IMG/VR virus record: IMGVR_UViG_3300046703_000103 | Coordinates: 1 to 49,744 of that record | Length of the DNA stretch: 49,744 nucleotides | Direction: 5' to 3' (one strand) | Source: a virus | In this document: piece after piece, positions 7,733 to 48,621 of the stretch | How positions within the stretch are numbered: position 1 is the first letter of the stretch | Layout of the letters: every line of letters begins with the position of its first letter | Translations under genes and position numbers: made by a program | Notes under the pieces: model-generated | Databases searched by the model: none | The model's input: the letters and a program-made list of their open reading frames with translations, nothing else | Told to the model about the DNA's origin: nothing

Positions 7733-9365
7733 GGAAATTCTAGCGCATTTTGGCTTCGACATAGACCACGCCGAATTAAACAAAGGCGAGGCCGGAATCA
7801 ACCACATGGTTGAGTCTATCGGTTCCCTCAGCCGCAAGATCGGCGAGGCCTTTGCCCTTTACAAAATTAAGGAATTCGTTCAGCAGACGATTGAAGGGGC
7901 CCTGCAACTAAATCACGCCGCAATCGTGGCAGGCACCACGGCCGAGAAACTGCAAAGCCTACAGTTTGCGGCCGAGCAGTCCGAGGTCCCGGTCGAGGCC
8001 CTATCAATGGGCCTTATCCGCTTGCAGCGGTCAATGTTTGCGGCAGATAAAGGGGCTATGGGCGCGGGTGAGGCGTTTCATAAACTAGGCTTGAACGAAA
8101 AGGATCTAGCCAAGAAAGACACCACCGAGGCCTTCGTGGACGTGGCCGAGGCTATCGCCGGCATTCAAAATCCCGCGGAGCAGGCAGCCACGGCTATGAG
8201 AATCTTCGGCCGCGGCGGTGCGCAGCTAATGCCGATGCTTAAACTAGGGCGGGAAGGCGTAGACAAACTTCGGGCAGGGGTTAATAGACTGGGCGGCGGG
8301 TACACGCAGGACTACATAGCGCAGGCTAGAAAAGCGTACGACGCAAGTGGCGAGCTACATATGGCCTGGCGGTCTTTGTCCGTGATATTGACTGGCTATT
8401 TAGTGCCGGCTTTGACGTGGATTACGGACAAATGCACGGATTTCGTTAGTGGTTTGGGGCATCTCAACGAAACCGTGGACATTTCCCGCATCGGGATTGC
8501 GGCGTTTGCGGCTGTGGCCGTTGCGGGGCTGTCCCAAATCATTCCTTTGGTGACGGCGTTCGCCCTTAAATCGGCCCTTCCGATCGCCGGTTGGTTGCTT
8601 TTGGGACTGGCTATTGAGGACATAATCGGCCTTTTCCAGGGGGACAACAGCCTCACCGGTACACTGATCGACCACTTCTTCGGCGACGGCGCCAAGGATG
8701 TGTTTGTTGGTGACGTCACGGCTATGTTAGCGACGTGGCAAACGTTCGACGACGGCGTGGTCAACTTTCTCGGCACGGCCGGCGCTGGCATGACGGGCTG
8801 GATCGTAGACCACACAAAGTACTGGGCCGCGCTGTGCGAGTGGGGGTTGAAGTTCATTGATCTTTTAAGCCGAGCGCAAGCTTTCGTGCGTGGTGAGACC
8901 CCAGAGGGGTACAATGAGCGCATAGCAGGCGAACGCGAGCAAGATTTCGCACAGATCGGAAACACGTCCAAAGAGCGGTCCGAGGCCAACGCAGCTAATT
9001 ACCGATCGGAATTCGATCGAATCCGGGACGCGGCTGCAACGGCCAAGATCGCGGAACACCGCGAGGCTCAACTAGCCCAAGGCCTCCCGCAAAGCGGGGG
9101 CCAGACCTACGGTCCGGGCATCGGCACTTCAGAAGCGCCCACCTATGCGTTGCCAAGTGGCGCTAGTGTACCTGTTTCCCAGGGCGTGCCCCAGTATATG
9201 TCCTCACCACAATATTTCACAGACAAGTCCAGCACGGTAATTCAGACTATGCCGGGTACAACAGACGGACAGGCCAAGGCGATTGGCGCGGCCGTAGCCA
9301 AGGCCCGACGGGACTCCTCCGAATACCGCGCAACAGCAAACGCTCTTGAATCGGCGGTAGAGTAA
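7722..9365 (+). CDS. Tail tape measure protein
   Basis: 547 residues, the largest protein of the tail cluster, directly after the chaperones. Residues ~30-200 are helical (including a GTTAEKLQSLQFAAEQSEV region and AGIQNPAEQAATAMRIFGRGG, both typical of tape measures). Residues ~250-310 are strongly hydrophobic and could span membrane during DNA entry. The C-terminal 130 residues are polar and low complexity. At about 1.5 angstrom per residue the tail would be near 80 nm, which is short for a myovirus. The region may include internal domains I cannot identify. Confidence 0.85.
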   Translation: MALREILAHFGFDIDHAELNKGEAGINHMVESIGSLSRKIGEAFALYKIKEFVQQTIEGALQLNHAAIVAGTTAEKLQSLQFAAEQSEVPVEALSMGLIRLQRSMFAADKGAMGAGEAFHKLGLNEKDLAKKDTTEAFVDVAEAIAGIQNPAEQAATAMRIFGRGGAQLMPMLKLGREGVDKLRAGVNRLGGGYTQDYIAQARKAYDASGELHMAWRSLSVILTGYLVPALTWITDKCTDFVSGLGHLNETVDISRIGIAAFAAVAVAGLSQIIPLVTAFALKSALPIAGWLLLGLAIEDIIGLFQGDNSLTGTLIDHFFGDGAKDVFVGDVTAMLATWQTFDDGVVNFLGTAGAGMTGWIVDHTKYWAALCEWGLKFIDLLSRAQAFVRGETPEGYNERIAGEREQDFAQIGNTSKERSEANAANYRSEFDRIRDAAATAKIAEHREAQLAQGLPQSGGQTYGPGIGTSEAPTYALPSGASVPVSQGVPQYMSSPQYFTDKSSTVIQTMPGTTDGQAKAIGAAVAKARRDSSEYRATANALESAVE

Positions 9366-10189
9366 TGCCCTGTTATTTCTCCTGGACCAATGCCGATGGC
9401 TCCTTTGATCTCGTTCAATTGGACGTCTATGACTCCGAAACGCACGGTTTCGCGACGGAAGTCACGGATTTTCCGGTGGAAGATGGGCCCAACATTTCAG
9501 ACAACGTCCGGCGCAAGCCAAAAACTCTAGCAATCGAAGGTTACGTCTCAGACACACCTCTCCCGCAAAACGGGCGCGCAACCAACGCGGGCGCGGTGTA
9601 TGCCGAGCTGGGCCCGCACACCCTAAATCTGCCAGGCTCCACGCACTTCCACAACCAGTTGCAAACCCTGGACGTGCCCTCTAGCCCGCTGCGTCCCAAT
9701 TTGCAGGCCCTGGCCAGCGCCGGATTCAGCGCTCTGGCGGGCGCGCTTGGATTCGGCGGACCGCCCCAAATTAACGCACGCGTTCAAGATCCACGCAAAT
9801 CAGAAACAGCCACGGCGCAAATATGGACCTGGCCTAGCTGGACCAGCCGAGCGGGCGAGGCCTTTCGCTTGCTGGAAAAGGCCTACGACACTGCGGTGTT
9901 AATGAAAGTGGTGACGGACTTTAAGACTTACGATGGCATGGTGTTTGCAGACAACGGCTTACAGGTCCCACGTAAAGTTGAGGACGGTGCCGGTGCGCCT
10001 TTTTCGCTCAGCCTTAAACAGGTTCGAATCGTTAACTCTAAGACCGTAACAGCCCCCAAGCCCGCGGAAACAAGCGGCCAGCTCAAGAAGAGCGCGGGGT
10101 CCAAGGCCGGAAAGGATGAACCGGCGGACCACAAGAAACAACGCGACACGATTTTAGCGGCCCTTTTGGGCTTGGCGAAACCGTCATGA
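9365..10189 (+). CDS. Dit-like distal tail/baseplate protein
   Basis: 274 residues following the tape measure. The N-terminal segment VTDFPVEDGPNISDNVRRKP with IEGYVSDTPLP is the signature of Dit-like proteins of DUF3383-type myophages, which make the ring joining tube to baseplate hub. The C-terminal ~60 residues are Lys/Ala/Pro-rich and probably disordered. It is coupled to its neighbours by one-base and four-base overlaps. Confidence 0.75.
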   Translation: MPCYFSWTNADGSFDLVQLDVYDSETHGFATEVTDFPVEDGPNISDNVRRKPKTLAIEGYVSDTPLPQNGRATNAGAVYAELGPHTLNLPGSTHFHNQLQTLDVPSSPLRPNLQALASAGFSALAGALGFGGPPQINARVQDPRKSETATAQIWTWPSWTSRAGEAFRLLEKAYDTAVLMKVVTDFKTYDGMVFADNGLQVPRKVEDGAGAPFSLSLKQVRIVNSKTVTAPKPAETSGQLKKSAGSKAGKDEPADHKKQRDTILAALLGLAKPS

Positions 10190-19975: not shown

Positions 19976-20550
19976 TGATACCCACCATTGATCACATCCA
20001 GGACGGGGCCGCCAAGGTAATATCCCAATACAGAAACAAACCTAAGTTTCTGCTGCGGCTTGCGTGCTATCTGAACCAGATTCAACACATAGAGGATGCG
20101 ATTTTCGCTCTACGCGCCGCATTCAATCCAGACACGGCCACAGGTTTTCGCTTGGACTGGATAGGGCGCAAAGTTGGCCAAGCGCGACTTGGCTCTGATA
20201 GCACGCTCCGACTCTTAGCTAAAGCGCGTATTCGTGTGAATCGAAGTCAGGGGAAAACGAGCGACCTGGCGGCTGTGGGTAACCTTCTGCTTTCCCTCGG
20301 GTGGACATATGATGAGTGGGGAACTACCATCCAGATCTACACCGCGGACGACCTAACACCCTTAATGATTGAGACGGTGCAGGACCTCCTGCAAGCCACG
20401 GCCCCTGGTGGTGTACCGGTTTTTCTTCTGCAGACGGCCGGTAGCCCGGCTTTCGAGTTTGCCGTAGAGGGTTCGGACCTAGCCCTGTCCGGCGGGTTCG
20501 ACACTGAAGCAGGCGACACAAACGCCGGCATTTGGAGCACAGTACAATGA
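19975..20550 (+). CDS. Baseplate/tail protein (DUF2612-like)
   Basis: 191 residues from GTG 19975, sharing one base with the previous TAG. The N-terminal pattern (LLRLACYLNQIQHIEDAIF, then TGFRLDWIGRKVGQAR) is that of DUF2612 proteins found at the end of myophage baseplate clusters, functionally near gpI/gp53-type wedge or fibre-connecting proteins. It is separated from the other baseplate genes by the spike and lysis genes, which is unusual. Confidence 0.65.
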   Translation: MIPTIDHIQDGAAKVISQYRNKPKFLLRLACYLNQIQHIEDAIFALRAAFNPDTATGFRLDWIGRKVGQARLGSDSTLRLLAKARIRVNRSQGKTSDLAAVGNLLLSLGWTYDEWGTTIQIYTADDLTPLMIETVQDLLQATAPGGVPVFLLQTAGSPAFEFAVEGSDLALSGGFDTEAGDTNAGIWSTVQ

Positions 20551-21311
20551 TAGTTCCTACGCAGATCCTACCGCGCCCCGCAACTGACGCCACGGTAACC
20601 GCAGGCCTGCCCGAGGCGGGTCTTGGCACGCGGCTAGACCCTAGTACGGCCATAGCCCAAGGTGTGATTGGCGGTCGCAAGTTCGGCGGCCGTGTCATGA
20701 ATTGGGTTCTTGGTGGATTCGGTGACTGGCTCGCGTACTTACGCGAGGCAACGCCCGTCACGCTGGAAACTGCGCCGCAAACTTTTCGGCTTCCCGCCGC
20801 AGGTGTGGCCGAACTGCACGGCGCAAAGTCAACTTTTTCGTTCGAGTTAGGGTCTAACCCTACCACAGGTTTACCGGAGCCCACTATCACACAAAATATA
20901 ACTAACTGCCTTTTTTGCGTTGATCTATCGGCATACTTACCAACCAACGGCATTCTGTACAGCATTAACGTAGCGGTACAGGCTTCAACCGCTTACGCCG
21001 CCATACCCCCTAGCGGGGAACTTCCCACCCTCGCCGTCTGGCAGGTACTCGCATCAGGCGATGCATCTATCTTAGGCACTGCTGAGGTAGACTCTTCAGG
21101 AGACTTGGCCGCGTACAAACTAAGGCACTTGATCACCAAAACGCTGGAAACGCCAACGGTCTTGACCAATGAGGCGCTTTTCGGCTCGGGGTCCAATGAA
21201 CAGCGCCGGCTCCTACTGATGCTGCAAGGGGGAACGACCAGTCCGCTCGCGCATCCGGTGTATTTCTCGAATTTTTGCGCTCACGTGGGGTCGGTTACCT
21301 GGGGCGGATGA
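20547..21311 (+). CDS. Putative tail fibre/virion protein, last late gene
   Basis: 254 residues from ATG 20547 (ATGA overlap). It contains a conserved-looking N-terminal GVIGGRKFGGRVMNWVLGGFGDWLAYLRE segment (long run split by function, probably attachment) and a beta-rich C-terminal domain. It follows the DUF2612-like gene, where fibre proteins are usually encoded. The gene ends 25 bases before the 39-bp repeat array. Confidence 0.5.
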   Translation: MIVPTQILPRPATDATVTAGLPEAGLGTRLDPSTAIAQGVIGGRKFGGRVMNWVLGGFGDWLAYLREATPVTLETAPQTFRLPAAGVAELHGAKSTFSFELGSNPTTGLPEPTITQNITNCLFCVDLSAYLPTNGILYSINVAVQASTAYAAIPPSGELPTLAVWQVLASGDASILGTAEVDSSGDLAAYKLRHLITKTLETPTVLTNEALFGSGSNEQRRLLLMLQGGTTSPLAHPVYFSNFCAHVGSVTWGG

Positions 21312-21336
21312 ACCACAGTGCATCGGCTGTGACATA

Positions 21337-21648
21337 AACCGGTCGCGAAGAATTCCCGTGGGAATGTTTGACGTGAACCGGTCGCGAAGAATTCCCGTGG
21401 GAATGTTTGACGTGAGCCGGTCGCGAAGAATTCCCGTGGGAATGTTTGTGCGAAACCGATCGCGAAGAATTCCCGTGGGAATGTTTGTGCGAAACCGGTC
21501 GCGAAGAATTCCCGTGGGAATGTTTGTGCGAAACCGGTCGCGAAGAATTCCCGTGGGAATGTTTGACGTGAACCGGTCGCGAAGAATTCCCGTGGGAATG
21601 TTTGACGTGAACCGGTCGCGAAGAATTCCCGTGGGAATGTTTGTGCGA
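21337..21648. repeat. Array of eight 39-bp direct repeats between convergent operons
   Basis: Eight head-to-tail units of exactly 39 bp, each AACCGGTCGCGAAG, then the dyad ATTCCCGTGGGAAT, then GTTTG plus a variable pentamer (ACGTG in units 1, 2, 6, 7; TGCGA in units 3, 4, 5, 8). Unit 3 has AGCCGG and unit 4 CCGATC variants. A partial ninth unit follows. It fills the space between two convergent operons (stops at 21311 and 21662). Open frames in it are a consequence of the 39-bp (3x13) period and are not taken as genes. Candidate roles: protein-binding array (origin iterons, partition or packaging) or a string of terminator-like hairpins. Confidence 0.9.
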
Positions 21649-21661
21649 AACCGGCGCGGTT

Positions 21662-22204
21662 CTAAGCAATACCGAGATTCGCAGCCCGGTTTAGGTACCA
21701 CTGCTCAGCTAACGTGGACGTGATGGGCCTTACGTAGGTCGAGTATGGCTCTGGCAGTGTGTCGCGGCCTAGCATAGCGCAGAACTCAACGTCGGTCATT
21801 CCGCGCGGACCGTTGTCCCTGCGTTCAGTCAGCATTGCCTGAATATCCCACCATTTGACGTCAAGGCGCGGAACCCCGAATCGTTCGGAAATCGCGTGGT
21901 GCCAACGCTCTTCTACGTTGTCTAGGGCCGTTGTGTGTTTGCGCAAAAGCGCCTTAAGGGGTGACGACTGGTCGCCTATGTACGCCTCACTGGCGTCGTG
22001 CAACAAAGCCCAAGGCGCTAGGTCGGGCGGACAAATCGCGGACACCAAGATGCAGTGCTGGGCCACAGAAAGGAACGAATCCCCAGCGCCCGTGAAGCGC
22101 CCCACACGCGCAAGGTGGTGCGCAATATCCCCAAGGCTCACATCCCCAGGCGACGGAGCTTCTAGGTCAACGATGCGACCGCTGTGCATTAGTGCGATTG
22201 TCAT
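21662..22204 (-). CDS. HD-domain phosphohydrolase (YfbR/DatZ-like)
   Basis: 180 residues. Motifs: an N-terminal IAHHLARVGRF segment, SVAQH, and the HD signature LLHDASEAYIGD followed by SPLK; these define the phage YfbR-type HD group of deoxynucleotide hydrolases. The group includes DatZ, which removes dATP in phages with diaminopurine DNA. Here it is coupled by ATGA to a MazZ-like gene, so both probably adjust the nucleotide pool for replication. It is the last gene of the replication operon. Confidence 0.75.
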   Translation of the reverse strand: MTIALMHSGRIVDLEAPSPGDVSLGDIAHHLARVGRFTGAGDSFLSVAQHCILVSAICPPDLAPWALLHDASEAYIGDQSSPLKALLRKHTTALDNVEERWHHAISERFGVPRLDVKWWDIQAMLTERRDNGPRGMTDVEFCAMLGRDTLPEPYSTYVRPITSTLAEQWYLNRAANLGIA

Positions 22205-26971: not shown

Positions 26972-27502
26972 TTAGGTTGCGGGACCGTACCACTCACTGG
27001 GGTAGTACTTCTTTCCCGCATCGGGAGGATTGCCTGGTGTGACATCCACGCGTAGCTTGCCACCAATCAAATGGACAGGTAAGCTTGCGTCCGCAACTTT
27101 GGTGAGGGCTTCAGCTAAACATCGGTCAAAGAAGGGCCGAGCTTGCGCGAGTGCGCTTTCATCGTTGGGGTCAACGCCCATATTGCAGTACACGAATTTA
27201 GCAAAATACCCCTGCCAGCCTTTACCTGTTTGGCTGCGCACGTAAGAACTTTGCGCGCCGGATTGCACGCTGGGATTGTTCGATTCCACGACGTGGTATT
27301 CGACAATCACATTAGTAGTACGTATTTTATAGTCATCTACCTGCACAACGTAGCTAAAATTTTCGGGCAGCCTAGGCCGGCCCGATGCTGGGATTTCGAC
27401 GCTGCCTAGTCCGGCAAATGGGTTGGAAGCTGCGAAACCGTTGACGGGTGCTTGTGCTTGTGCTTGTGCTTGTGCTTGTGCTTGTGCTTGAAATGGGTTC
27501 AT
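26972..27502 (-). CDS. Possible single-strand DNA-binding-like replication protein
   Basis: 176 residues. It begins with MNPF and seven Gln-Ala dipeptides, then NPFAGLGSVEIPASGRPRLP and a beta-rich domain (FSYVVQVDDYKI, NVIVEYHVVESNN, GWQGYFAKFVYCNMG) ending KKYYPSEWYG. The fold pattern and place between helicase and polymerase resemble phage proteins thought to bind single-stranded DNA, but no diagnostic motif is seen. The Gln-Ala run is encoded by a hexanucleotide microsatellite. Confidence 0.5.
   Translation of the reverse strand: MNPFQAQAQAQAQAQAQAPVNGFAASNPFAGLGSVEIPASGRPRLPENFSYVVQVDDYKIRTTNVIVEYHVVESNNPSVQSGAQSSYVRSQTGKGWQGYFAKFVYCNMGVDPNDESALAQARPFFDRCLAEALTKVADASLPVHLIGGKLRVDVTPGNPPDAGKKYYPSEWYGPAT
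27449..27490 (-). repeat. Hexanucleotide microsatellite coding (Gln-Ala)x7
   Basis: Seven TGCTTG units on the plus strand (CAAGCA on the coding strand). Length changes keep the frame and only alter an N-terminal tail. Confidence 0.85.
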
Positions 27503-27567
27503 GTTTATCCTTGTTTGCGCTGGAAAATCCAGCGGATTCCTGAGTGTGACCTACAGCGCGCGGGCCG

Positions 27568-33862: not shown

Positions 33863-34035
33863 ACGCACGTGAGCGCAAAAACGAACTTGCACGCGAACGC
33901 TACGCCAACGATCCAGCCTACCGCGAACGCAAAAACATGCTTGAGCGTAAACGCATACAAGAACCAGCCTGCCGCAAGCGCAAAAACGAACTTGCACGCG
34001 AACACTACCACCAAAAGAAAGACCAAAAATCATGA
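33859..34035 (+). CDS. Small Arg/Lys/Glu-rich protein
   Basis: 58 residues, ATG overlapping the primase stop and its own stop overlapping the next ATG (ATGA). It has an internal repeat, RKNELARERY...RERKNMLERKR...RKNELAREHY, of charged helix with a 'YANDPAYRERKN' pattern common in small phage DNA-binding proteins and N-termini of homing-type nucleases. Probably a coiled or extended nucleic-acid-binding helix. Confidence 0.6.
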   Translation: MNARERKNELARERYANDPAYRERKNMLERKRIQEPACRKRKNELAREHYHQKKDQKS

Positions 34036-35555
34036 AAATCGACCAAGAATTCAAGGACCTTATTCCGCCATTAAAACCCGCCGAGCGCGAGGCGCTAAAA
34101 GCTTCGATCGCCAAGGAGGGCGGGGCACGCGATCCGATCGTTTTGTGGGGTGAAACCGTCATAGACGGGCACAATCGCTTCGAAATCTGCACGGAGCTTG
34201 GCCTGCCATTCAACACCGTGGGCCGCAAATTTGCGGACCGGAATGCTGTCAAGGCCTGGATTTTAGCCAATCAAATAGCCAGACGCAACCTCGCGCCCGA
34301 TCAAGTTGTCATGGTTGCCGCGATAGGCGGACTTGAAGTGCCCCAGGCATACCGCGGATCACGCCTTGATACGTTGGCCAAGGAGCTGGTTGCATCAAAA
34401 TGTCCCGACATTTCCAAGGTGCTGGCCGGCACGCTAACCGTGCGCCTTGCGCTTTTGCGAATGAAGACTAAAACCGAGCGCTTCGCACGCAAATCCCCAC
34501 CTACTTTCGACGACCACGTAGCCAAAAGCAAACAAAAGGCCGAAGAAAGCCAAGCGAAAACGCACCTTAAGGCGGCCGTTGCGCGCATCGAAACGTTGCA
34601 AAATTTAGTGGAAAATCTCAGTGCGCCCAAGCCCCCGCCGGCCTTCTCAGTCGTGCGCCACTTAGGAAGTGACAAGCGCCAGGCTTGGGGCCTGAGCCTC
34701 TTAAGTGACGTGCATGCGGGTGCGTTGGTCGAGCCCACAGCCAGCGTTTGCTTTAACAAGTACGACCCAGCCGTCTGCCGCACTGGCCTGGACCGATACT
34801 TTGAGTCGATTCCTTGGCTGATTAAGGACGAGCACTCGTTTGACGTCGTGGGTCATTGTCTGTGGCTCGGCGGGGACCTAATTGACGGCCAACTGCACGA
34901 CGATCAAACCGAGACCTCCGAGTCGCCGCTTGTTACACTTAATTGGCTCGAACCCTTCCTTATGGGCCGGCTTGAGGCCCTGGCGTCCGAACTAGGCGAG
35001 CGTGAGCTGCGCGTTATATGCAGTTACGGCAATCATGGCAGGGACACGGTAAAGCCTAGAAATGAAACTGGGGCCGAGCACTCACATGAGTGGGCGTTAT
35101 ACCAGCGCCTAGGCCGGCACTTCGCAAGTCACAAAACGATTCGTGTACACACCGACAAAGCTAGGGATCAATATACGCAGCTTTTCAACTTCACCCTACA
35201 CGGCACGCACGGCGACACAGTGCGATCAAATGGCGGCATAGGCGGAATTACGATACCAATGCGCAAAGCTTATGCAGTATGGCAACAAATACGCCCCAGC
35301 TATCTGCACCTGACGGGGCACTTCCACACTCAGTTGGATTTGGGGGACGGCCTGGCTAACGGATCTGTAGTTGGCTACAACGCTTTTGCGCGCAAAATCA
35401 ATGCGCGACCCGAAGCGCCCCAGCAGATTTTCTGCCTCGTGGACAGCAAACGCGGCAAAACAAAGGTCAGCCCAATTTGGGTCCGCGATCTAGACAATCA
35501 AGAGCGCGTGGCACTTTCGGCCCGTACGCAGGAATGGGAGCAGCAAAACACATGA
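34032..35555 (+). CDS. ParB-like domain fused to calcineurin-type phosphoesterase
   Basis: 507 residues. Residues ~10-95 look like a ParB/Srx N-terminal domain (LKPAEREALKASIAKEGGARDPIVLW, then VIDGHNRFEICTELG). A helical linker with a coiled coil (~170-200) follows. Residues ~215-450 are a metallophosphoesterase with all signature blocks: LLSDVHAG (~223), LGGDLIDG (~279), YGNHGRD (~332), HGTHGD (~391) and TGHFHT (~428). Metal-dependent nuclease or phosphatase activity guided by a ParB-like DNA or NTP-binding module is inferred. I have not seen this exact pairing described often. Confidence 0.8.
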   Translation: MKIDQEFKDLIPPLKPAEREALKASIAKEGGARDPIVLWGETVIDGHNRFEICTELGLPFNTVGRKFADRNAVKAWILANQIARRNLAPDQVVMVAAIGGLEVPQAYRGSRLDTLAKELVASKCPDISKVLAGTLTVRLALLRMKTKTERFARKSPPTFDDHVAKSKQKAEESQAKTHLKAAVARIETLQNLVENLSAPKPPPAFSVVRHLGSDKRQAWGLSLLSDVHAGALVEPTASVCFNKYDPAVCRTGLDRYFESIPWLIKDEHSFDVVGHCLWLGGDLIDGQLHDDQTETSESPLVTLNWLEPFLMGRLEALASELGERELRVICSYGNHGRDTVKPRNETGAEHSHEWALYQRLGRHFASHKTIRVHTDKARDQYTQLFNFTLHGTHGDTVRSNGGIGGITIPMRKAYAVWQQIRPSYLHLTGHFHTQLDLGDGLANGSVVGYNAFARKINARPEAPQQIFCLVDSKRGKTKVSPIWVRDLDNQERVALSARTQEWEQQNT

Positions 35556-35843: not shown

Positions 35844-36147
35844 AGAATACCCCGTCCTGGCTCGCGCCGTTGAAGACGGCGTAGCTGACGGCTACAGGCG
35901 CGCCCACAAGCACACCGGCAATCCCGTGCCCGGCACGGTCATAAACGAAATTGAGCAGGCCGTGCTGGGTGCGATCTGCGCGGTTTTCGAAATCGCCGTT
36001 GAAGATGGCGTAGCTGACGGCTACAGGCGCGCCCACAAGCACACCGGCAATCCCGTGCCCGGCACGGTCATAAACGAAATTAAGCAGGCCGTGCTGGGTG
36101 CGATCTGCGCGGTTTTCGAAATCGACCCCGATTCGGAGGCTGTGTGA
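35833..36147 (+). CDS. Protein with tandem 43-residue duplication
   Basis: 104 residues: a short head (MKAKEYPVLAR), then two nearly identical 43-residue units (AVEDGVADGYRRAHKHTGNP ... VFEI) differing by one Glu/Lys change, and an acidic tail. The duplication is recent, as the DNA copies differ at very few bases. Each unit looks like a small helical hairpin. Function unknown; it lies in a patch of small genes after the ParB fusion. Confidence 0.6.
   Translation: MKAKEYPVLARAVEDGVADGYRRAHKHTGNPVPGTVINEIEQAVLGAICAVFEIAVEDGVADGYRRAHKHTGNPVPGTVINEIKQAVLGAICAVFEIDPDSEAV
35866..36123 (+). repeat. Two tandem copies of a 129-bp coding repeat
   Basis: Copies at 35866-35994 and 35995-36123. The very few differences (for example GAC/GAT, GAG/AAG) show a recent in-frame duplication. 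Confidence 0.9.
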
Positions 36148-36430: not shown

Positions 36431-36781
36431 GTGCATGATCTAGACTCGTACCTGCAGGAAGTCGCCGCGCGGCTCGAACGCTTCCCCATCAATGTGGTGA
36501 TTTGCTGGATTGATCCTGACCAAACGGGGGATGCTAATTTTGAGGACTGGGCCACGTGCTGCGCTCCGACCCGCGCTTGCCCTCTGTGGGTGATTGGTGT
36601 GTCCAAGCGCTTGTGCCGCGCGCCTAAGTTCGTCCTGCGCTGGCTGGTGCTGCATGAATGCCTGCACGTGCGCCTGCCTGGCACGCTAACTGGCGTTAGC
36701 CACCACTATTATTTTCGCCAAGCCGAGCGCGCACACCCAGACTATCTACGAGCCTGCACTTGGTTTGCCAAGCACCTCTAG
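36431..36781 (+). CDS. Putative small zinc metallopeptidase (SprT/YgjP-like)
   Basis: 116 residues if GTG 36431 is used; the frame is open further upstream (TTG 36350) so the start is uncertain. The motif LVLHECLHVRLPG (HExxH) followed by VSHHYYFRQAERAHPDY is like small metallopeptidases in which a third ligand follows in an H..F helix. Substrate unknown. The 3' end overlaps the convergent pentapeptide-repeat gene by 36 bases. Confidence 0.5.
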   Translation: MHDLDSYLQEVAARLERFPINVVICWIDPDQTGDANFEDWATCCAPTRACPLWVIGVSKRLCRAPKFVLRWLVLHECLHVRLPGTLTGVSHHYYFRQAERAHPDYLRACTWFAKHL

Positions 36782-37417
36782 CTCATCAGTTCGGAATTTG
36801 TCTCCCGCGGCGACAATGTGCCCAAGTTTAACACGTACAGGTACAATAGATTCGCTGGGGTAATGCACAGCGAGCCATTGTTGAGTGGCAAAGTAGATCC
36901 CCGGGTGACATGAAGAGCTTATGTCACGGCTTAAAACTGCCGTGTAGATGCCGGGCCTGTACTCGGTTGATCCGTTGTGCTGCGATTTTGCTGTGCGCCA
37001 CGCATACACGTAGCCGTCACGCACGTCAAAAGGTAAAGCGCCTGGATCCGGAATCTCCCCGCTTAAACATGTATCTACGAGGTGTGCGTCCCGAAGGTGT
37101 GCACCTTCAAGGTTTGCGCCCTGAAGGTGTGCGCCCAGAAGGTCGGCGCCCCGAAGGTGTGCGCCCTGAAGGTGTGCGTCCCGAAGGTCGGCGCCCCGAA
37201 GGTTTGCGCCCAGAAGGTCGGCGCCCCGAAGGTTTGCGTTCCGAAGGTCGGCGCCCTGAAGGTTTGCGTCCCGAAGGTTTGCGTCCCGAAGGTCGGCGCC
37301 CGGAAGGTGTGCGTCCCGAAGGTCGGCGCCCCGAAGGTACGCGCCCTGAAGGTACGCGCCCTTGACATTTAAAATCACTTGTCTAGCTCTGTTTCTAATT
37401 TCCATACTTTTACTCAT
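36746..37417 (-). CDS. Pentapeptide-repeat protein
   Basis: 223 residues from ATG 37417. Residues ~18-115 consist of about 20 pentapeptides of the A(D/H/N)L(R/Q)(G/D) type (GADLRDAHLPGADLRDANLR...), which fold as a right-handed quadrilateral beta-helix. The C-terminal ~105 residues are a globular domain (DGYVYAWRTA, RPGIYTAVLSRDISSSCHPGIYFATQ). Members of this class can mimic DNA or bind gyrase; here neither is shown. The DNA has 15-bp periodicity, so repeat number may vary. It ends the HTH operon. Confidence 0.75.
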   Translation of the reverse strand: MSKSMEIRNRARQVILNVKGAYLQGAYLRGADLRDAHLPGADLRDANLRDANLQGADLRNANLRGADLLGANLRGADLRDAHLQGAHLRGADLLGAHLQGANLEGAHLRDAHLVDTCLSGEIPDPGALPFDVRDGYVYAWRTAKSQHNGSTEYRPGIYTAVLSRDISSSCHPGIYFATQQWLAVHYPSESIVPVRVKLGHIVAAGDKFRTDELEVLGKPSAGS

Positions 37418-37613
37418 GCACACTTTGTGCCCACGCCAAGGCCGTGACATAAACCGGTCGCGACATAAGCAGGGCCTGCACCTCTGGCGGTGCAGCGCGG
37501 TACGTATTCACGACCTGCTTAAGGCTACGCACCGCGTAGCCTTCAAGACGCTGTGCGTAGGCTTCAGGACTCAAGGTCACGGATCGGTTGTGTAGGCGAA
37601 GAGTCTGTTTCAT
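37410..37613 (-). CDS. Small protein, unknown
   Basis: 67 residues from ATG 37613, with AAGGA six bases upstream. Helical, with a central YAQRLEGYAVRSLKQVVNTYRAAPPEVQALLM region. Near the C-terminus its DNA contains GTGACATAAACCGGTCGCGA, identical to the left flank of the 39-bp repeat array. Overlaps the pentapeptide gene by eight bases. Confidence 0.55.
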   Translation of the reverse strand: MKQTLRLHNRSVTLSPEAYAQRLEGYAVRSLKQVVNTYRAAPPEVQALLMSRPVYVTALAWAQSVHE

Positions 37614-37632: not shown

Positions 37633-38475
37633 TCAAAGGCCAAGCGCGTCCGCAACACCCGTGTGAGGCGTCCAGCCTAATTTAACCAGGCGCTTCTTTG
37701 CTGTGTTGTAGGGCACGCCCCACACATGGGCGGCTTCACCAATTGATTCCACGTTGCGCTTGCATACGTGCCCCATTGGGTGCGTGTCGTCAATGCCGTT
37801 GCGTAGTTCGTCAACCCATGCGGCGCGGTTTTGAGCCACAGCCGAGTCGGGATCGTGTTCCGTGTGTCGTTCAAGTCCAAATTCTGGGTTGATTTCGAAT
37901 TTTCTCCAGGCCTGGCGCAAAAAACTTTCCGTGACGCCCAGCTTGGTGGCTATGTCCTTGACCGTAAAGCCTTCGCTGAGCCAGGCCTGTGTTTGCACTC
38001 CGTTGTGCTTGAAGTTCATCTCCGCACGCGGAAACTCCGCAGGTCTTAAAGAAATAGCTGGTGTTTTCACGCCATACAAGTCTAAGCACACCCTAGCAGC
38101 CCAAACGTCAACCCGAAGATCGGCCGCTATGTAATTGCTGGACCACGTGTGCGCGTGCTGTTTAAGGTAGGCACCAAGGTCTGGATTCTGGGCGTGGGCC
38201 GCTTGCATGGTGGGTATGTCGTTGTCATGCAGCCAAAGTGCGTAGGTGTCGCCGTGGGATTCAAAACTGTAAAGCGCCCAATGGCGCGCCAGCAGGTAAA
38301 GGGCGCTCACGTCCGGAAAAAAACCTTTCAGGGCGTCCCTGTTGCGCGCCACTTCAACCAAAGGGCGGGGGTTGGGCCTAGGACGTGGGCGGGAACAGAA
38401 GATCGCCACGTCAGTTTTGAAGGTTTCTAGGTCGGCCCGTTGGGTGTCTCTCCATTTAAATTCGCACTGTAGCAT
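37633..38475 (-). CDS. Helix-turn-helix protein, putative regulator
   Basis: 280 residues from ATG 38475, which sits at the predicted transcription start of a strong promoter. A predicted HTH lies at ~residues 182-205 (WLSEGFTVKDIATKLGVTES) and a second HTH-like stretch near the C-terminus (SIGEAAHVWGVPYNTAKKRLVKLG). The N-terminal half (residues ~1-150) is unlike known families to me. Divergent from the terminase genes; it may control the divergent region that contains two mirrored 22-bp elements, or it may be a homing-type DNA-binding protein. Confidence 0.6.
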   Translation of the reverse strand: MLQCEFKWRDTQRADLETFKTDVAIFCSRPRPRPNPRPLVEVARNRDALKGFFPDVSALYLLARHWALYSFESHGDTYALWLHDNDIPTMQAAHAQNPDLGAYLKQHAHTWSSNYIAADLRVDVWAARVCLDLYGVKTPAISLRPAEFPRAEMNFKHNGVQTQAWLSEGFTVKDIATKLGVTESFLRQAWRKFEINPEFGLERHTEHDPDSAVAQNRAAWVDELRNGIDDTHPMGHVCKRNVESIGEAAHVWGVPYNTAKKRLVKLGWTPHTGVADALGL

Positions 38476-38481
38476 AGGTAT

Positions 38482-38510
38482 ATAGTAGCAGGCCGGGCCA
38501 AGGAAGTCAA
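38482..38510 (-). promoter_or_regulatory. Promoter of the HTH gene, leaderless start
   Basis: Minus strand: TTGACT, 17-bp spacer ending TGC, TACTAT, six bases, then ATG 38475. No ribosome site intervenes. Confidence 0.65.
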
Positions 38511-38523
38511 GTTGGCTAACGAC

Positions 38524-38545
38524 CCGGTTAGCAGTAGTTAGGATC
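38524..38545 (-). promoter_or_regulatory. 22-bp element upstream of the HTH promoter
   Basis: CCGGTTAGCAGTAGTTAGGATC lies 13 bp upstream of the -35 box at 38510. The inverted copy at 38650-38671 (20 of 22 bases the same) lies 13 bp from the -35 box of the opposite promoter, so it is probably an activator site. Confidence 0.6.
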
Positions 38546-38649
38546 CAAGGTTTCAAAGTAGTGGTTTGTGCACCTGAGCATAGTACAGATGTTAGATTTG
38601 TAGATTCACACTATGGGGGGGATCACATTCTTAGATCCTTGAGCGGGCA

Positions 38650-38671
38650 GATCCTAAATACTACTAACCGG
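38650..38671 (+). promoter_or_regulatory. 22-bp element upstream of the terminase promoter
   Basis: Inverted copy of the element at 38524-38545, 13 bp upstream of the TTGACC at 38685. The spacing to each -35 box is the same on both sides. Confidence 0.6.
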
Positions 38672-38684
38672 CCCGGTACACGAC

Positions 38685-38713
38685 TTGACCTGGCGGCTAG
38701 CACGTGCCACAAT
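38685..38713 (+). promoter_or_regulatory. Promoter of the terminase operon, leaderless start
   Basis: TTGACC, 17-bp spacer ending TGC, CACAAT, six bases, then GTG 38720 as start codon of the small terminase. No ribosome site. Confidence 0.6.
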
Positions 38714-38719
38714 GAAGTC

Positions 38720-39343
38720 GTGCCCTTAATCCCGCGGAAATGGCGCAAAAGGCCGCTGCCCACACCTGAAATGGCTGAGTCCGAGGCTGTTTTACGATCC
38801 GACCCCACCCCGGCTGAACAGGCTTTGGCCTTGATTGCGCCTGAAATGTTGAACCTGGCTACAGGGCTTGCGCGTGCGTGGGAGCCGCAGCCCAACGAAA
38901 CGGCGCAAGGCTACGCGGCGTTTTTCCTTTGGCTGCGGGGTGGCCGAGAGTGCCCTAACATCCCTGAAGCTCGCGCAGGACGTTGGGTGCAGCGCCGGAT
39001 CGCATACGAGGCTTGCGGCCAGCCACTAGCGGCCACGCCTGAAGCCATGGATCGGATCTTTAATGAGTGCCTGCAGATCGCCGCTATGTGGGCCTCGCAC
39101 GAACTGGCCAAGCATCTGGCCAACGCCTTGGGCACTCCGCAACCAGGGGCGACCGCGGGTGAGACCGTGCGCGTAGCTAAGGAGGTCATCACGTTGTACC
39201 GTCTGCTGGCCGGCCAGTCCACTGCGAACGTCAGCCTGAGAGACGGCACGGGGCATGCACGTGATCTAACCCGGCTGAGCGACACAGAGCTGGCTCAGCT
39301 GTTAGCTCTTGAAACTAAAGCAGAAACGAATGATCAAAAATGA
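38720..39343 (+). CDS. Terminase small subunit-like protein
   Basis: 207 residues from GTG 38720 at a predicted transcription start; longer in-frame starts would be upstream of the promoter. The helical protein (residues ~30-160; FLWLRGGRECPNIPEARAGRWVQRRIAYEACG looks like a helix-turn-helix region) and a C-terminal GTGHARDLTRLSDTELAQLLALE segment resemble small terminase proteins. It precedes a certain large terminase by two genes. The pac or cos site is not recognised. Confidence 0.6.
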   Translation: MPLIPRKWRKRPLPTPEMAESEAVLRSDPTPAEQALALIAPEMLNLATGLARAWEPQPNETAQGYAAFFLWLRGGRECPNIPEARAGRWVQRRIAYEACGQPLAATPEAMDRIFNECLQIAAMWASHELAKHLANALGTPQPGATAGETVRVAKEVITLYRLLAGQSTANVSLRDGTGHARDLTRLSDTELAQLLALETKAETNDQK

Positions 39344-39575
39344 CAACGGGTTTTTCTGCCTTACGCCGGCTGAGTTTGCGGCGCAATGCGAGGCCGCGGG
39401 TTTGGTTCCGCGCCTAACCGCAGTGGGCGAAGCGCAGGAAGGCGCTGGGCTGCGTGCGTGGCCTTCGGGCCTTTTACCCTGGTGCGAGAAAACCGAAAAC
39501 ATCCACGTTCTGGCGTGGCCCGACGGCAAATGCATGGTCTCGCTTGAGCTGTGGAAGGCTTTAGGTGGGGCGTGA
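39330..39575 (+). CDS. Small protein between terminase genes, unknown
   Basis: 81 residues from ATG 39330, overlapping the small terminase by 14 bases. Contains FFCLTPAEFAAQCEAAGLVPRL and LLPWCEKTENIHVLAWPDG, a compact alpha/beta pattern. Its stop codon lies inside the first of two 39-bp repeats. No family recognised. Confidence 0.5.
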   Translation: MIKNDNGFFCLTPAEFAAQCEAAGLVPRLTAVGEAQEGAGLRAWPSGLLPWCEKTENIHVLAWPDGKCMVSLELWKALGGA

Positions 39576-39649
39576 CCGGTTTCGCACAAACATTCCCACG
39601 GGAACTCTTCGTGACCGGTTTCGCACAAACATTCCCACGGGAACTCTTC
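39572..39649. repeat. Two 39-bp repeats of the array family, inverted, before large terminase
   Basis: Two head-to-tail 39-bp units, reverse complement of the array unit at 21337, differing at two bases (TCACGA for TCGCGA and GAGTTC for GAATTC). The central TTCCCGTGGGAA dyad is kept. A five-base start of a third unit follows. Confidence 0.9.
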
Positions 39650-39738
39650 GTGACTTTTCTGCGTACTCCTATGATCCGAATGTCAGCCATAAATGCCGCT
39701 AAAAGCCTTGGCCCGTGGGCTACCGCGACAGGCCGATC

Positions 39739-41253
39739 ATGGGTTTAAGCCGACTTGAAGAGGCGCTAGTTGAGCGCGATCGTCGGCTGGTGACTGCGCA
39801 TGGCTTGCTTGCATTCGGCACGCTCGCTTGGCCGGTACTCTTCCCGGGACAGGCGTACGTCCACGGCTGGCACATCGAAGAGATTTGCAAGCACACTGAA
39901 GCAGCGTATTTTGGCGACGGCTACGAAATGATCCTGAATGTGCCCCCGGGCACGGGTAAAAGCGTGTGGGTGAGCACGCTCGCAGATGCTTGGGCCTGGA
40001 CCGTTGACCCGACGTTCAGTCCCCTTAACTTCAGTTTTGATGAGGACAACTTGGAGCGTGACGCCGCACGCGTTATTACGTTGGTGCAGAGCCCTTGGTA
40101 TCAGGCGCGCTGGCCTAACATCCAGCTGCAGAAAAAGGACCCCGCAACCAAGTTCTTCTATAACACTTTAGGCGGGTTCAGGTACGCCTCCACGGTACAC
40201 GGCAGGGGGACAGGCAAACACGGAAATGTTCGCAAGTGTGACGACCCGATCAAACCCAATGACACTGTTGGGGCCGCGGCCACCACTAAGGCTGAGCTTG
40301 ATTTCGTGAGCAACTGGTGGGATGTGACCATCAGCACTCGAACTAAACCTACGGAGATCCCTAGGTATCTGGTAATCATGCAGCGACTGCACGAAGCCGA
40401 TCTTGTGGGCCACCTTATCGATATAGGCCGCCCTACTGTGTTGCGCCTGCCCATGCGCTACGAGGCCGACAAGCCGTGCGTGACACCGTACGGCGGGGAC
40501 TGGCGTACAGTCAATGGTGAGCTGCTGTGGCCAGCGGCTTACCCCGAGGCCAAAGTTGCGAAGTTGGAAGCAGCTCTTGGGATTTTCGCTAACGCGCAGC
40601 TGCAGCAGAATCCCACTAACCCCCTGGGTGAGGTCTTTAAGGCGGAGACGTTTAGGCGCTGGGCTAAGATTCCGGACTTGAGCAACACCATCTTAAGTGT
40701 GGACTGCTCGTTCAAGGACAAAGCTGGGTGCGACAACATTTCCATCCAAGTATGGGGTACCGACGGTGTGGACTTCTACGGGCCACTTGCGAACGTGACG
40801 TGCTTGGCTGGATGCGACGACACGATACGTCTCTGCAAAGGCGTTCTGCAGGCATGGCCTGGCGTGCGCGATAAGCTTGTGGAAGACAAGGCCAACGGCT
40901 CGGCCGTGATTGAGGCTTTGAAACGCGCTGTTCCAGGCGTGATTGAAGTGAACCCAGAAGGGGGTAAGATTGCGCGCGCCAATTCGATAACATACCTGTT
41001 CAAGGGCGGGAACGTCTACTTCCCACCGGACGATTACGCGCCGTGGGTGGGGGCCTTCGTGACGGAGGTTTTGGGCTTCCCGAAGGCCAAGCACGATGAC
41101 CAGGTGGACGCCATGACTCAAGCCCTTGGGTACCTTGCGGCGAATTTGTCCACAATGTGGGCGTATTTGAGCGCGCAAATGAAGGTTGAACGCCCGGTTG
41201 TCGAGCCTGAGTTTCAAAGCCCATTCGATCGCGGGCCTAGATTGGTGTATTGA
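39739..41253 (+). CDS. terL: Terminase large subunit
   Basis: 504 residues from ATG 39739 (GTG 39715 also in frame). The ATPase half has NVPPGTGKSVWVS (Walker A, ~residue 67) and an arginine-rich adenine-binding region; RKCDDPI may be the Walker B region. The nuclease half has SVDCSFKDKAG (first Asp, ~320), LVEDKANGSAVIEAL (second acidic motif) and AKHDDQVDAMTQAL (closing motif, ~452), the RNase H-like set of TerL proteins. It cuts and pumps DNA into proheads. Two 39-bp repeats sit just upstream. Confidence 0.9.
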   Translation: MGLSRLEEALVERDRRLVTAHGLLAFGTLAWPVLFPGQAYVHGWHIEEICKHTEAAYFGDGYEMILNVPPGTGKSVWVSTLADAWAWTVDPTFSPLNFSFDEDNLERDAARVITLVQSPWYQARWPNIQLQKKDPATKFFYNTLGGFRYASTVHGRGTGKHGNVRKCDDPIKPNDTVGAAATTKAELDFVSNWWDVTISTRTKPTEIPRYLVIMQRLHEADLVGHLIDIGRPTVLRLPMRYEADKPCVTPYGGDWRTVNGELLWPAAYPEAKVAKLEAALGIFANAQLQQNPTNPLGEVFKAETFRRWAKIPDLSNTILSVDCSFKDKAGCDNISIQVWGTDGVDFYGPLANVTCLAGCDDTIRLCKGVLQAWPGVRDKLVEDKANGSAVIEALKRAVPGVIEVNPEGGKIARANSITYLFKGGNVYFPPDDYAPWVGAFVTEVLGFPKAKHDDQVDAMTQALGYLAANLSTMWAYLSAQMKVERPVVEPEFQSPFDRGPRLVY

Positions 41254-41451: not shown

Positions 41452-41682
41452 ATGAAACGTCATCTAGATCCGCTGGAAATTATGCTTCTCGGCCTCGTAA
41501 CCGTGGCTTTGCTGTTCTCCATTTTCGCCCTTATGGCTCGCCAGGCTGTTGGCGCACCTATGGTCGTGCTTCCCGAGTTAGTGATTCGTGGCCGCACGCA
41601 CGCCGCACCCGCCCCTTCGGCCCGTCGAATTCTAACAGGCGTCTGCTTTGAGCGCGCGGACGGGATTCGAATCTGTAACTAA
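41452..41682 (+). CDS. Small membrane-anchored protein
   Basis: 76 residues. AAAGG precedes ATG. Residues ~9-31 form one hydrophobic helix (IMLLGLVTVALLFSIFALMA), followed by a short exported-looking domain with two Cys (GVCFERADGIRICN) that may form a disulfide. Most of the gene lies in the 210-bp repeat, whose second copy carries a headless version at 42070. Function unknown. Confidence 0.55.
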   Translation: MKRHLDPLEIMLLGLVTVALLFSIFALMARQAVGAPMVVLPELVIRGRTHAAPAPSARRILTGVCFERADGIRICN

Positions 41683-41714
41683 ATGGCACAGTTTGTGCAA
41701 AGAGTTAAGTCATG
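41505..41714 (+). repeat. 210-bp perfect direct repeat, copy 1
   Basis: Identical over 210 bases to 42070-42279 (offset 565). It contains most of the small membrane gene, a GTTTGTGC-AAAGAGTTAAGTC leader split by spacing, and ends in an ATG that starts the next gene. Confidence 0.95.
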
Positions 41715-42069: not shown

Positions 42070-42247
42070 GGCTTTGCTGTTCTCCATTTTCGCCCTTATG
42101 GCTCGCCAGGCTGTTGGCGCACCTATGGTCGTGCTTCCCGAGTTAGTGATTCGTGGCCGCACGCACGCCGCACCCGCCCCTTCGGCCCGTCGAATTCTAA
42201 CAGGCGTCTGCTTTGAGCGCGCGGACGGGATTCGAATCTGTAACTAA
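42070..42247 (+). pseudogene. Headless second copy of the small membrane gene
   Basis: The second repeat copy begins inside the membrane-helix codons of the gene at 41452 and keeps the frame to its stop, but lacks the original start and first ~18 codons. An in-frame run from 41966 exists, so a fused product cannot be excluded. Confidence 0.7.
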
Positions 42248-42279
42248 ATGGCACAGTTTGTGCAAAGAGTTAAGTCATG
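42070..42279 (+). repeat. 210-bp perfect direct repeat, copy 2
   Basis: Second copy; its final ATG starts the gene at 42277. Recombination between copies would delete 565 bp including the gene at 41712. Confidence 0.95.
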
Positions 42280-47502: not shown

Positions 47503-48000
47503 GTGGCGCGTGGGCTTTTCGGCAGGGATTTGACGCATCAGGACATACAGAATCTGACTGCAGTGCATCATTTGGACGTGCCTGGGGCGCATACAACTGA
47601 ATTGGAGCTAGCGCCTCATGGGTCTGACGGGTTATCCTACGCCGCGCGCATTAAGGATGCGGAGGGTAAAACGTTGGTGGAGGTCAAGCGCCAGATCGAA
47701 ACTAATTGGGAGAGCGGCAAGCGCGAAGTGGAAATACATCATGATTTAATGACTGTGGCCGAGCATTTGCAGGGTGAAGGGCTAGGGTCTAAGATTTTTG
47801 ACGCACAGCTTAAGGCGTATCAGGCGTGTGGCGGTATTGATCGCATTACCACAGACGCTGCCTGGGTGGGTATGTATCAATGGCCCGCAGTAGGCTTCGG
47901 CCTTGCACACGACGGCGTGCTAGATGGTGGCACGGGCGTTGCATTAACTGTAATAGCAGCAACAAGTTGCGGAAAGCAAAATCCCTCATGTCAAAGCTAA
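47503..48000 (+). CDS. Acetyltransferase-like (GNAT) domain in frame with MuF
   Basis: 165 residues from GTG 47503, but the frame is open from 47407, directly after the MuF amber. The domain resembles a GNAT fold: strands GLSYAARIKDAEG and TLVEVKRQIETN, then EHLQGEGLGSKIFDAQ (acetyl-CoA-binding loop with G-x-G-L-G), and a closing GMYQWPAVGFG where GNAT proteins have a Y..xGF. The GTG has only a weak ribosome site (CAGG three bases away). Either it is separately initiated, or made by readthrough as a MuF C-terminal effector domain. Substrate unknown. Confidence 0.55.
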   Translation: MARGLFGRDLTHQDIQNLTAVHHLDVPGAHTTELELAPHGSDGLSYAARIKDAEGKTLVEVKRQIETNWESGKREVEIHHDLMTVAEHLQGEGLGSKIFDAQLKAYQACGGIDRITTDAAWVGMYQWPAVGFGLAHDGVLDGGTGVALTVIAATSCGKQNPSCQS

Positions 48001-48314
48001 GTCCACGTCTTCACAGCACTTTCACGGTTCGCATATCTTTCGCCAAAATGCCCTGTAAATGTTGGGGTAGGTACGTGCATGTAGGCGTTGTAGAGCGTTG
48101 GGCTCCCGGCCCTGTGCAAGCATTAGTTAGTGATAGCATGCAGATGTTGGTTTTCTATCGCGGGCGCCTTAATGACGGCACAACTGAGCGCTGTGCATCC
48201 GCAAAGGCATCAAAACTAGCCGGTTTGGTCGTGAAACGCATGCGTGCAGAGTACGTAGAGAAGCTTTCGGCTGGTTATAATGCATATATTAGCGAGCGCG
48301 TAGATGAAATCTGA
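47988..48314 (+). CDS. Small protein, unknown
   Basis: 108 residues from ATG 47988, overlapping the previous frame by 13 bases. Beta-rich N-terminal part with a Cys pair (AKMPCKCWGRYVHVGVVERW) and a helical C-terminal part (RCASAKASKLAGLVVKRMRAEYVEKL). Not recognised. Confidence 0.55.
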   Translation: MSKLSPRLHSTFTVRISFAKMPCKCWGRYVHVGVVERWAPGPVQALVSDSMQMLVFYRGRLNDGTTERCASAKASKLAGLVVKRMRAEYVEKLSAGYNAYISERVDEI

Positions 48315-48570
48315 GCGTACCTGTGGCGCGGGTTTGAACCCTAGTTCGGCTACGGATGGGGGTTCATCTGTGATTTTACCGCCACTTTACAGGCATTCTG
48401 TGTATCGCATGCATGATTTAAGACTTGCGTCGATGCAACGGCGCTATCTGGACGCCGGGAACTACTGGGCGTGCGAGCAATGCGTGTTGGCACGCAAAGG
48501 CGACACGGGGGCGTTAGCCGTGTGCGCAACGTTCCCTGAATACACATCGCCAACCATTCATCACACATGA
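48304..48570 (+). CDS. Small Cys-containing protein, unknown
   Basis: 88 residues from ATG 48304. Contains YWACEQCVLARKGD (a single CxxC) and several further Cys; a zinc-binding or redox role is possible. It is the last plus-strand gene before the convergent fibre gene. The first ~25 residues are low-complexity and the true start may be the Met at about residue 36. Confidence 0.4.
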   Translation: MKSERTCGAGLNPSSATDGGSSVILPPLYRHSVYRMHDLRLASMQRRYLDAGNYWACEQCVLARKGDTGALAVCATFPEYTSPTIHHT

Positions 48571-48579
48571 TCGGCCTGT

Positions 48580-48597
48580 CCTGTTTGCGGGGTTTTT
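48580..48597 (+). terminator. Possible weak terminator between convergent genes
   Basis: CCTG, TTTG loop, CGGG (one G-U pair), then TTTTT. The stem is short, so confidence is low; it is well placed after the stop at 48570. Confidence 0.3.
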
Positions 48598-48621
48598 GCT
48601 ATGAAACGTTGCGCAAATATG

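Follow-up and report, generated by a model that had tools for sequence, protein, structure and literature searches.

An eight-unit palindromic repeat array at the convergent operon junction of a contractile-tailed phage, a possible transcription boundary

Why would a phage carry eight copies of a palindromic 39-bp sequence at the place where its two main operons meet? The window analyzed here is the whole 49,744-nucleotide stretch of IMG/VR record IMGVR_UViG_3300046703_000103, a 49.7-kb virus record of a contractile-tailed phage with recognized genes for sheath, tape measure, baseplate, portal, terminase, a PolA-like polymerase and a primase-helicase. The plus-strand late structural genes end at 21311 and a minus-strand block of replication and nucleotide-metabolism genes ends at 21662, so the two main operons do meet where an earlier note on this DNA had placed their junction. 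No gene-free stretch on the gene list is longer than the gap between them (21312-21661, 350 bp), in keeping with the claim that no other exceeds 300 bp, and the array nearly fills this gap, beginning 18 bp past one stop codon and ending 3 bp before the other:

20532..21311, plus strand: gene that closes the late (structural) operon, upstream of the array; its homologue in the related genome G3 (described below) is 41% identical
21330..21658, plus strand: array of eight direct 39-bp units, AACCGGTCGCGAAGAATTCCCGTGGGAATGTTTG followed by either ACGTG or TGCGA, plus another half unit on the right
21662..22204, minus strand: final gene of the early operon, which converges on the late one; a member of the deoxyribonucleoside 5' monophosphate phosphatase family (phrog_318), for which G3 yielded no homologue

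As a protein query against viral contigs and phages, the last late gene found no relative. The two contig ends (1-209 and 49169-49744) share a collagen-like (Gly-Pro-X) coding repeat, and since both lie in this one repeat, the genome is probably circular or circularly permuted, with the map broken there.

Tandem Repeats Finder, run on the whole 49.7-kb window, reports the array at 21330-21658 with period 39 and a score of 510, while the best score in 20 Markov-1 sequences of window length was 65. The eight direct units are of exact length, as had been described, and the near-palindrome ATTCCCGTGGGAAT is present in 8/8. Its dyad has perfect 6-bp arms and a 2-bp center in all array copies, and the 14-bp core is unchanged in every unit. 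The constant part of the unit, AACCGGTCGCGAAGAATTCCCGTGGGAATGTTTG, shows two single-base changes across the eight units. An ACCGGT site had been ascribed to every unit and is intact in six; unit 3 reads GCCGGT and unit 4 ACCGAT. The last five bases had been said to alternate between two variants, and here the description fails: the variable block takes three forms, in the order ACATA, ACGTG twice, TGCGA three times, ACGTG twice and TGCGA, that is, in runs (E A A B B B A A B, with ACGTG as the A type and TGCGA as the B type), and ACATA occurs once, at the left array edge. With these small corrections, the observation of the array is confirmed. Tested as a CRISPR array, the locus has no unique spacers; the units abut with at most the 5-bp block of three forms between them.

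The unit is also found elsewhere in the window. The related inverted pair that had been noticed near 39572, beside the large terminase gene, lies at 39571-39654, and we identified a further partial copy at 37440-37463 that the earlier note had overlooked:

37440..37463, plus strand: 24 nt that copy the left edge of array unit 1 with one mismatch and lack the dyad, located within a small, conserved protein-coding gene on the minus strand
39309..39575, plus strand: orf88; its G3 homologue (63%) overlaps the terL start
39571..39654, minus strand: two identical 39-bp units plus 6 bases, B type, between orf88 and terL
39715..41253, plus strand: large terminase open reading frame, likely ATG start near 39739; 61% identical in G3

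The first bases of the inverted pair supply the TGA stop of orf88, and a TATGAT hexamer lies about 15 bp downstream of the pair, before terL. The unit of the pair is identical to a B-type array unit at 37 of 39 positions, with two substitutions, and each of the two loci is homogenized within itself. The partial copy encodes SRPVYVTA, with ARPVFVAA as its G3 counterpart in the shared context PPEVQALL.(S/A)RPV.V.AL.W, and as part of a conserved coding gene it was rejected as a regulatory site. Its position in that gene points instead to the left edge of the array as a copied piece of coding sequence, in which case at least that edge arose by copy-and-join. We likewise rejected a GTGACAT operator family comprising this site and an inverted pair at 36905-36928, because the site is coding, the pair lies inside the pentapeptide-repeat gene (36746-37417), and the 7-mer shows no clear enrichment (9 occurrences, 4.5 expected).

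Four relatives, G1, G5, G2 and G3, were located through terminase, portal and baseplate proteins, G3 through a baseplate protein. G2 (12.9 kb) holds structural genes only, most of them 66-91% identical. G3 (50.6 kb) has the core gene order of the window, with most shared proteins 40-77% identical; G1 (48.1 kb, TerL 47%) and G5 (13.5 kb, near G1) are more distant than G3. At the convergent junction of G3 the array is absent, and the final genes of the two operons, late at 47791-48615 (minus) and early at 47535-47807 (plus), share 17 bp. Gene content there also differs, with no phosphatase gene in G3 and a different small gene in its place. The array may therefore belong to a larger segment that was exchanged, and not be a simple insertion. 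The comparison is cleaner at the orf88-terL locus: both genes are kept in G3, where they overlap by a few bases and no units precede terL, and in the window about 163 bp lie between them, half of it the inverted pair. Moreover, nothing in G3 matches ATTCCCRYGGGAAT within two mismatches. With the G3 genes overlapping at both places, this comparison indicates that both unit loci are extra, lineage-specific DNA relative to G3, and that the array is dispensable at its places in a relative of the same group. Upstream of terL, long 18-nt coding-type repeat arrays are present in G1 (L116 5921-6852, about 1 kb) and G3 (L128 7778-9784, about 2 kb).

No related array was found in the phage, plasmid, viral-contig or genome records searched; near relatives could still exist beyond these records. 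An exact 24-mer of the unit had no match in phage and plasmid collections or IMG/VR. A 20-mer had a single match in 85k bacterial and archaeal genomes, on a cyanobacterial contig with no repeat, and we attribute it to chance and reject a host repeat as the source of the unit. Tandem repeats near distant relatives of the DNA polymerase gave nothing alike, viral contigs with paired TTCCC..GGGAA dyads (L106-L114) were set aside for their different units and spacings, and our literature search found no described 39-bp array of this kind. One IMG/VR phage contig, L110, carries three 34-bp units at 9331-9410 with the extended palindrome CTTTGTATTCCCGTGGGAATACAAAG; these share the 14-bp core ATTCCCGTGGGAAT with the window dyad and belong to a phage of 44% GC with no detected kinship.

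The position of the array between converging operons raises the possibility of a terminator, and the earlier note had suggested serial bidirectional terminators. Against dinucleotide shuffles, the array folds strongly on the two strands (z -8.6 and -5.0). Most of this energy is due to tandem repetition itself: against tandem arrays of shuffled units the array falls in the low tail (1/60 and 3/60, about 1.8-1.9 standard deviations). Taken singly, the units are no more stable than shuffled sequence (z +0.8 to -1.4), short of an intrinsic terminator hairpin, no U-tract or T-run follows the stem, and no terminator-like site occurs in the array on either strand; one by one, the units are therefore poor intrinsic terminators. 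The sole terminator-like site touching the inverted pair (39636-39652) is within the chance number, and Rfam gave no meaningful match to RNA families. At the same junction, G1 has one 14-15 bp hairpin of about -30 kcal/mol (z about -5), also with no clear U-tract, and G5 keeps it; the two share 91% identity here, and the substitutions between them do not break the stem. This hairpin is not homologous to the array, and it makes a boundary function at the junction plausible in this phage group. Serial bidirectional terminators may thus still apply at the junction, which has a parallel in G1 and G5, although the individual units are weak candidates.

We tentatively regard the array as a locally amplified, lineage-specific palindromic repeat whose function, if it has one, would be that of a transcription boundary. 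A palindromic repeat would have been amplified locally in non-coding junctions, and the copies at 21330-21658 would then separate the convergent late and early operons as a boundary. RNAs reading through from one operon or the other would cross a 330-nt self-complementary stretch, so transcription might stall or RNA 3' ends might be shaped; any such effect on termination or RNA ends is our inference. The fit of the array to the convergent gap, the G1/G5 hairpin, a parallel in phage tf and the folding of both strands support this role. Against it, the inverted pair apparently falls within the terS-orf88-terL transcription unit, where a terminator would be unexpected; the G3 junction has no spacer at all; and the array owes its folding energy mostly to repetition of units that are individually weak and end in no T-run.

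The boundary role is only slightly favored, and it is nearly as likely that the array is a functionless, satellite-like repeat, in which slippage or unequal crossing-over multiplied a 39-bp unit where extra DNA was harmless and a copy moved to the orf88-terL junction. Such an origin would agree with both loci being extra DNA compared with G3, with homogenization within each locus and with 24 nt at the array edge that duplicate part of a conserved coding gene, the mark of a copy event. The window is also rich in fresh duplications, among them 15-nt and collagen-type repeats. A 129-bp tandem duplication (98%) at 35865-36122 doubles a 43-residue segment of a small protein, and a 210-bp stretch occurs twice between terL and the portal gene (41505-41714 and 42070-42279, 565 bp apart); at 100% identity, this second duplication is very recent. 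A purely neutral repeat sits less easily with a 14-bp dyad that is invariant throughout the array, or with conservation of the whole unit at 37/39 between two oppositely oriented loci, and tight phage genomes usually shed useless DNA. By comparison, a coding function seems very unlikely, and the array is most likely non-coding, as had been claimed. A period of 39 would keep frames open for a 13-residue peptide repeat on one strand, and open reading frames of 121-162 aa do cross the array, but these overlap real genes and have no G3 counterpart, and the small-gene frame (SRPV..KHSHGNS) runs into stop codons in the inverted pair. Replication origin iterons or a packaging (pac) signal are also improbable. 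Direct repeats near replication genes, a copy beside terL and a local maximum of cumulative GC skew near 21-23 kb would suit either, but G3 lacks the array despite having the same order of replication and packaging genes. The earlier note had proposed an origin, partition or packaging site and had named absence from a close relative with the same gene order as evidence against it, which is largely what G3 presents. In the GC-skew check that the note had proposed, a skew switch does lie near the array, but the skew follows the coding strand, and the local maximum fits a terminus better than an origin. Plasmid-type iterons would have whole-turn spacing of about 20-22 bp and an AT-rich unwinding region; here the period is 39 and GC is about 0.56-0.57 across 21-23 kb.

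The dyad might alternatively be the operator of a dimeric DNA-binding protein, clustered at the end of the late operon with a two-site copy before terL and serving regulation, partition or titration. We consider such a putative protein-binding array less probable than either a boundary or a neutral repeat. The candidate binders are:

34032-35555: fusion of an N-terminal ParB/Srx-like domain with one of metallophosphoesterase type (phrog_284)
37633-38556: HTH protein (regulator); G3 homologue 43%
38561-39343: TerS-like protein; G3 homologue 42%

The perfect arms and short center of every array copy, and the position of the inverted pair just upstream of the TATGAT hexamer, are what an operator would look like, and the window encodes both an HTH protein and one with a 'ParB/partition'-related N-terminal domain. 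However, a dyad with 6-bp arms is expected by our estimate about once per 15-20 random 39-mers, and a 39-bp period is not a whole number of helical turns. G3 keeps the HTH and TerS-like proteins and has no dyads, which speaks against either as an obligate binder unless its specificity has changed; the same comparison makes an essential origin, pac site or operator conserved in the lineage appear unlikely. Between the HTH regulator and TerS-like genes, at 38476-38719, there is a divergent promoter-like region with extended -10 type matches on both strands, and in G1, at 27399-27508 (L116 7399-7508), three direct GTGACATGG repeats lie opposite three inverted ones across 46 bp, a clear palindromic cluster that resembles an operator or origin.

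The ParB-like domain allows a more specific version, in which the phage gained the ParB/Srx-type domain-phosphoesterase fusion together with a multi-copy loading site, the array, as a partition-like centre, both of them missing from G3. The N-terminal domain is 54% identical over 89 aa to a Methanoculleus virus protein, and related phage proteins are annotated as partition/ParB. The homologue in G3 begins with a different N-terminal sequence, and no copy of the domain turned up in the rest of that genome. The A-type junctions match the bacterial parS consensus TGTTTCACGTGAAACA at 12-13/16 positions, the best in the window, where one such site would arise by chance in about 1-in-3 windows by our estimate; the B-type junctions, the only type in the inverted pair, do not match it. 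The Methanoculleus virus has no such array, and an AlphaFold model of the fusion from one sequence has a mean pLDDT of 38. We think a partition-like centre improbable; if true, it would occur in a phage with no sign of a plasmid lifestyle.

Whichever reading holds, the convergent-operon junction appears to be rebuilt quickly in this group: the genes overlap in G3, one strong hairpin occupies the junction in G1 and G5, and eight palindromic units fill it in the window. Should the array insulate transcription, repeats would be doing the work of a lone terminator; should it have no function, it cautions that a tandem dyad array need not be an origin or an operator. Among known systems, the neisserial dRS3 element, ATTCCC(N8)GGGAAT (PMC3898611), has 6-bp arms identical to those of the array dyad, ATTCCC/GGGAAT, and also forms intergenic arrays. 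Unlike dRS3, with its spacer of 8, the unit has a 2-bp spacer in 10/10 copies and occurs in a phage genome, at two loci only, with a tandem 39-bp period; the likeness is probably chance. Cluster A mycobacteriophage stoperators (PMC6550527, PMC9283540) are a family of phage repressor sites, asymmetric and spread genome-wide. The array resembles them in that short elements recur within non-coding stretches of a phage genome, and differs in its symmetric dyads, which are putative operators only, gathered in one tight array and one pair. Phage tf has a convergent operon pair separated by a predicted bidirectional terminator (PMC3517423). Like that terminator, the array stands between the ends of converging transcription units and has dyad symmetry; in place of a single rho-independent hairpin, it offers eight weak direct units over 330 bp with no T-runs.
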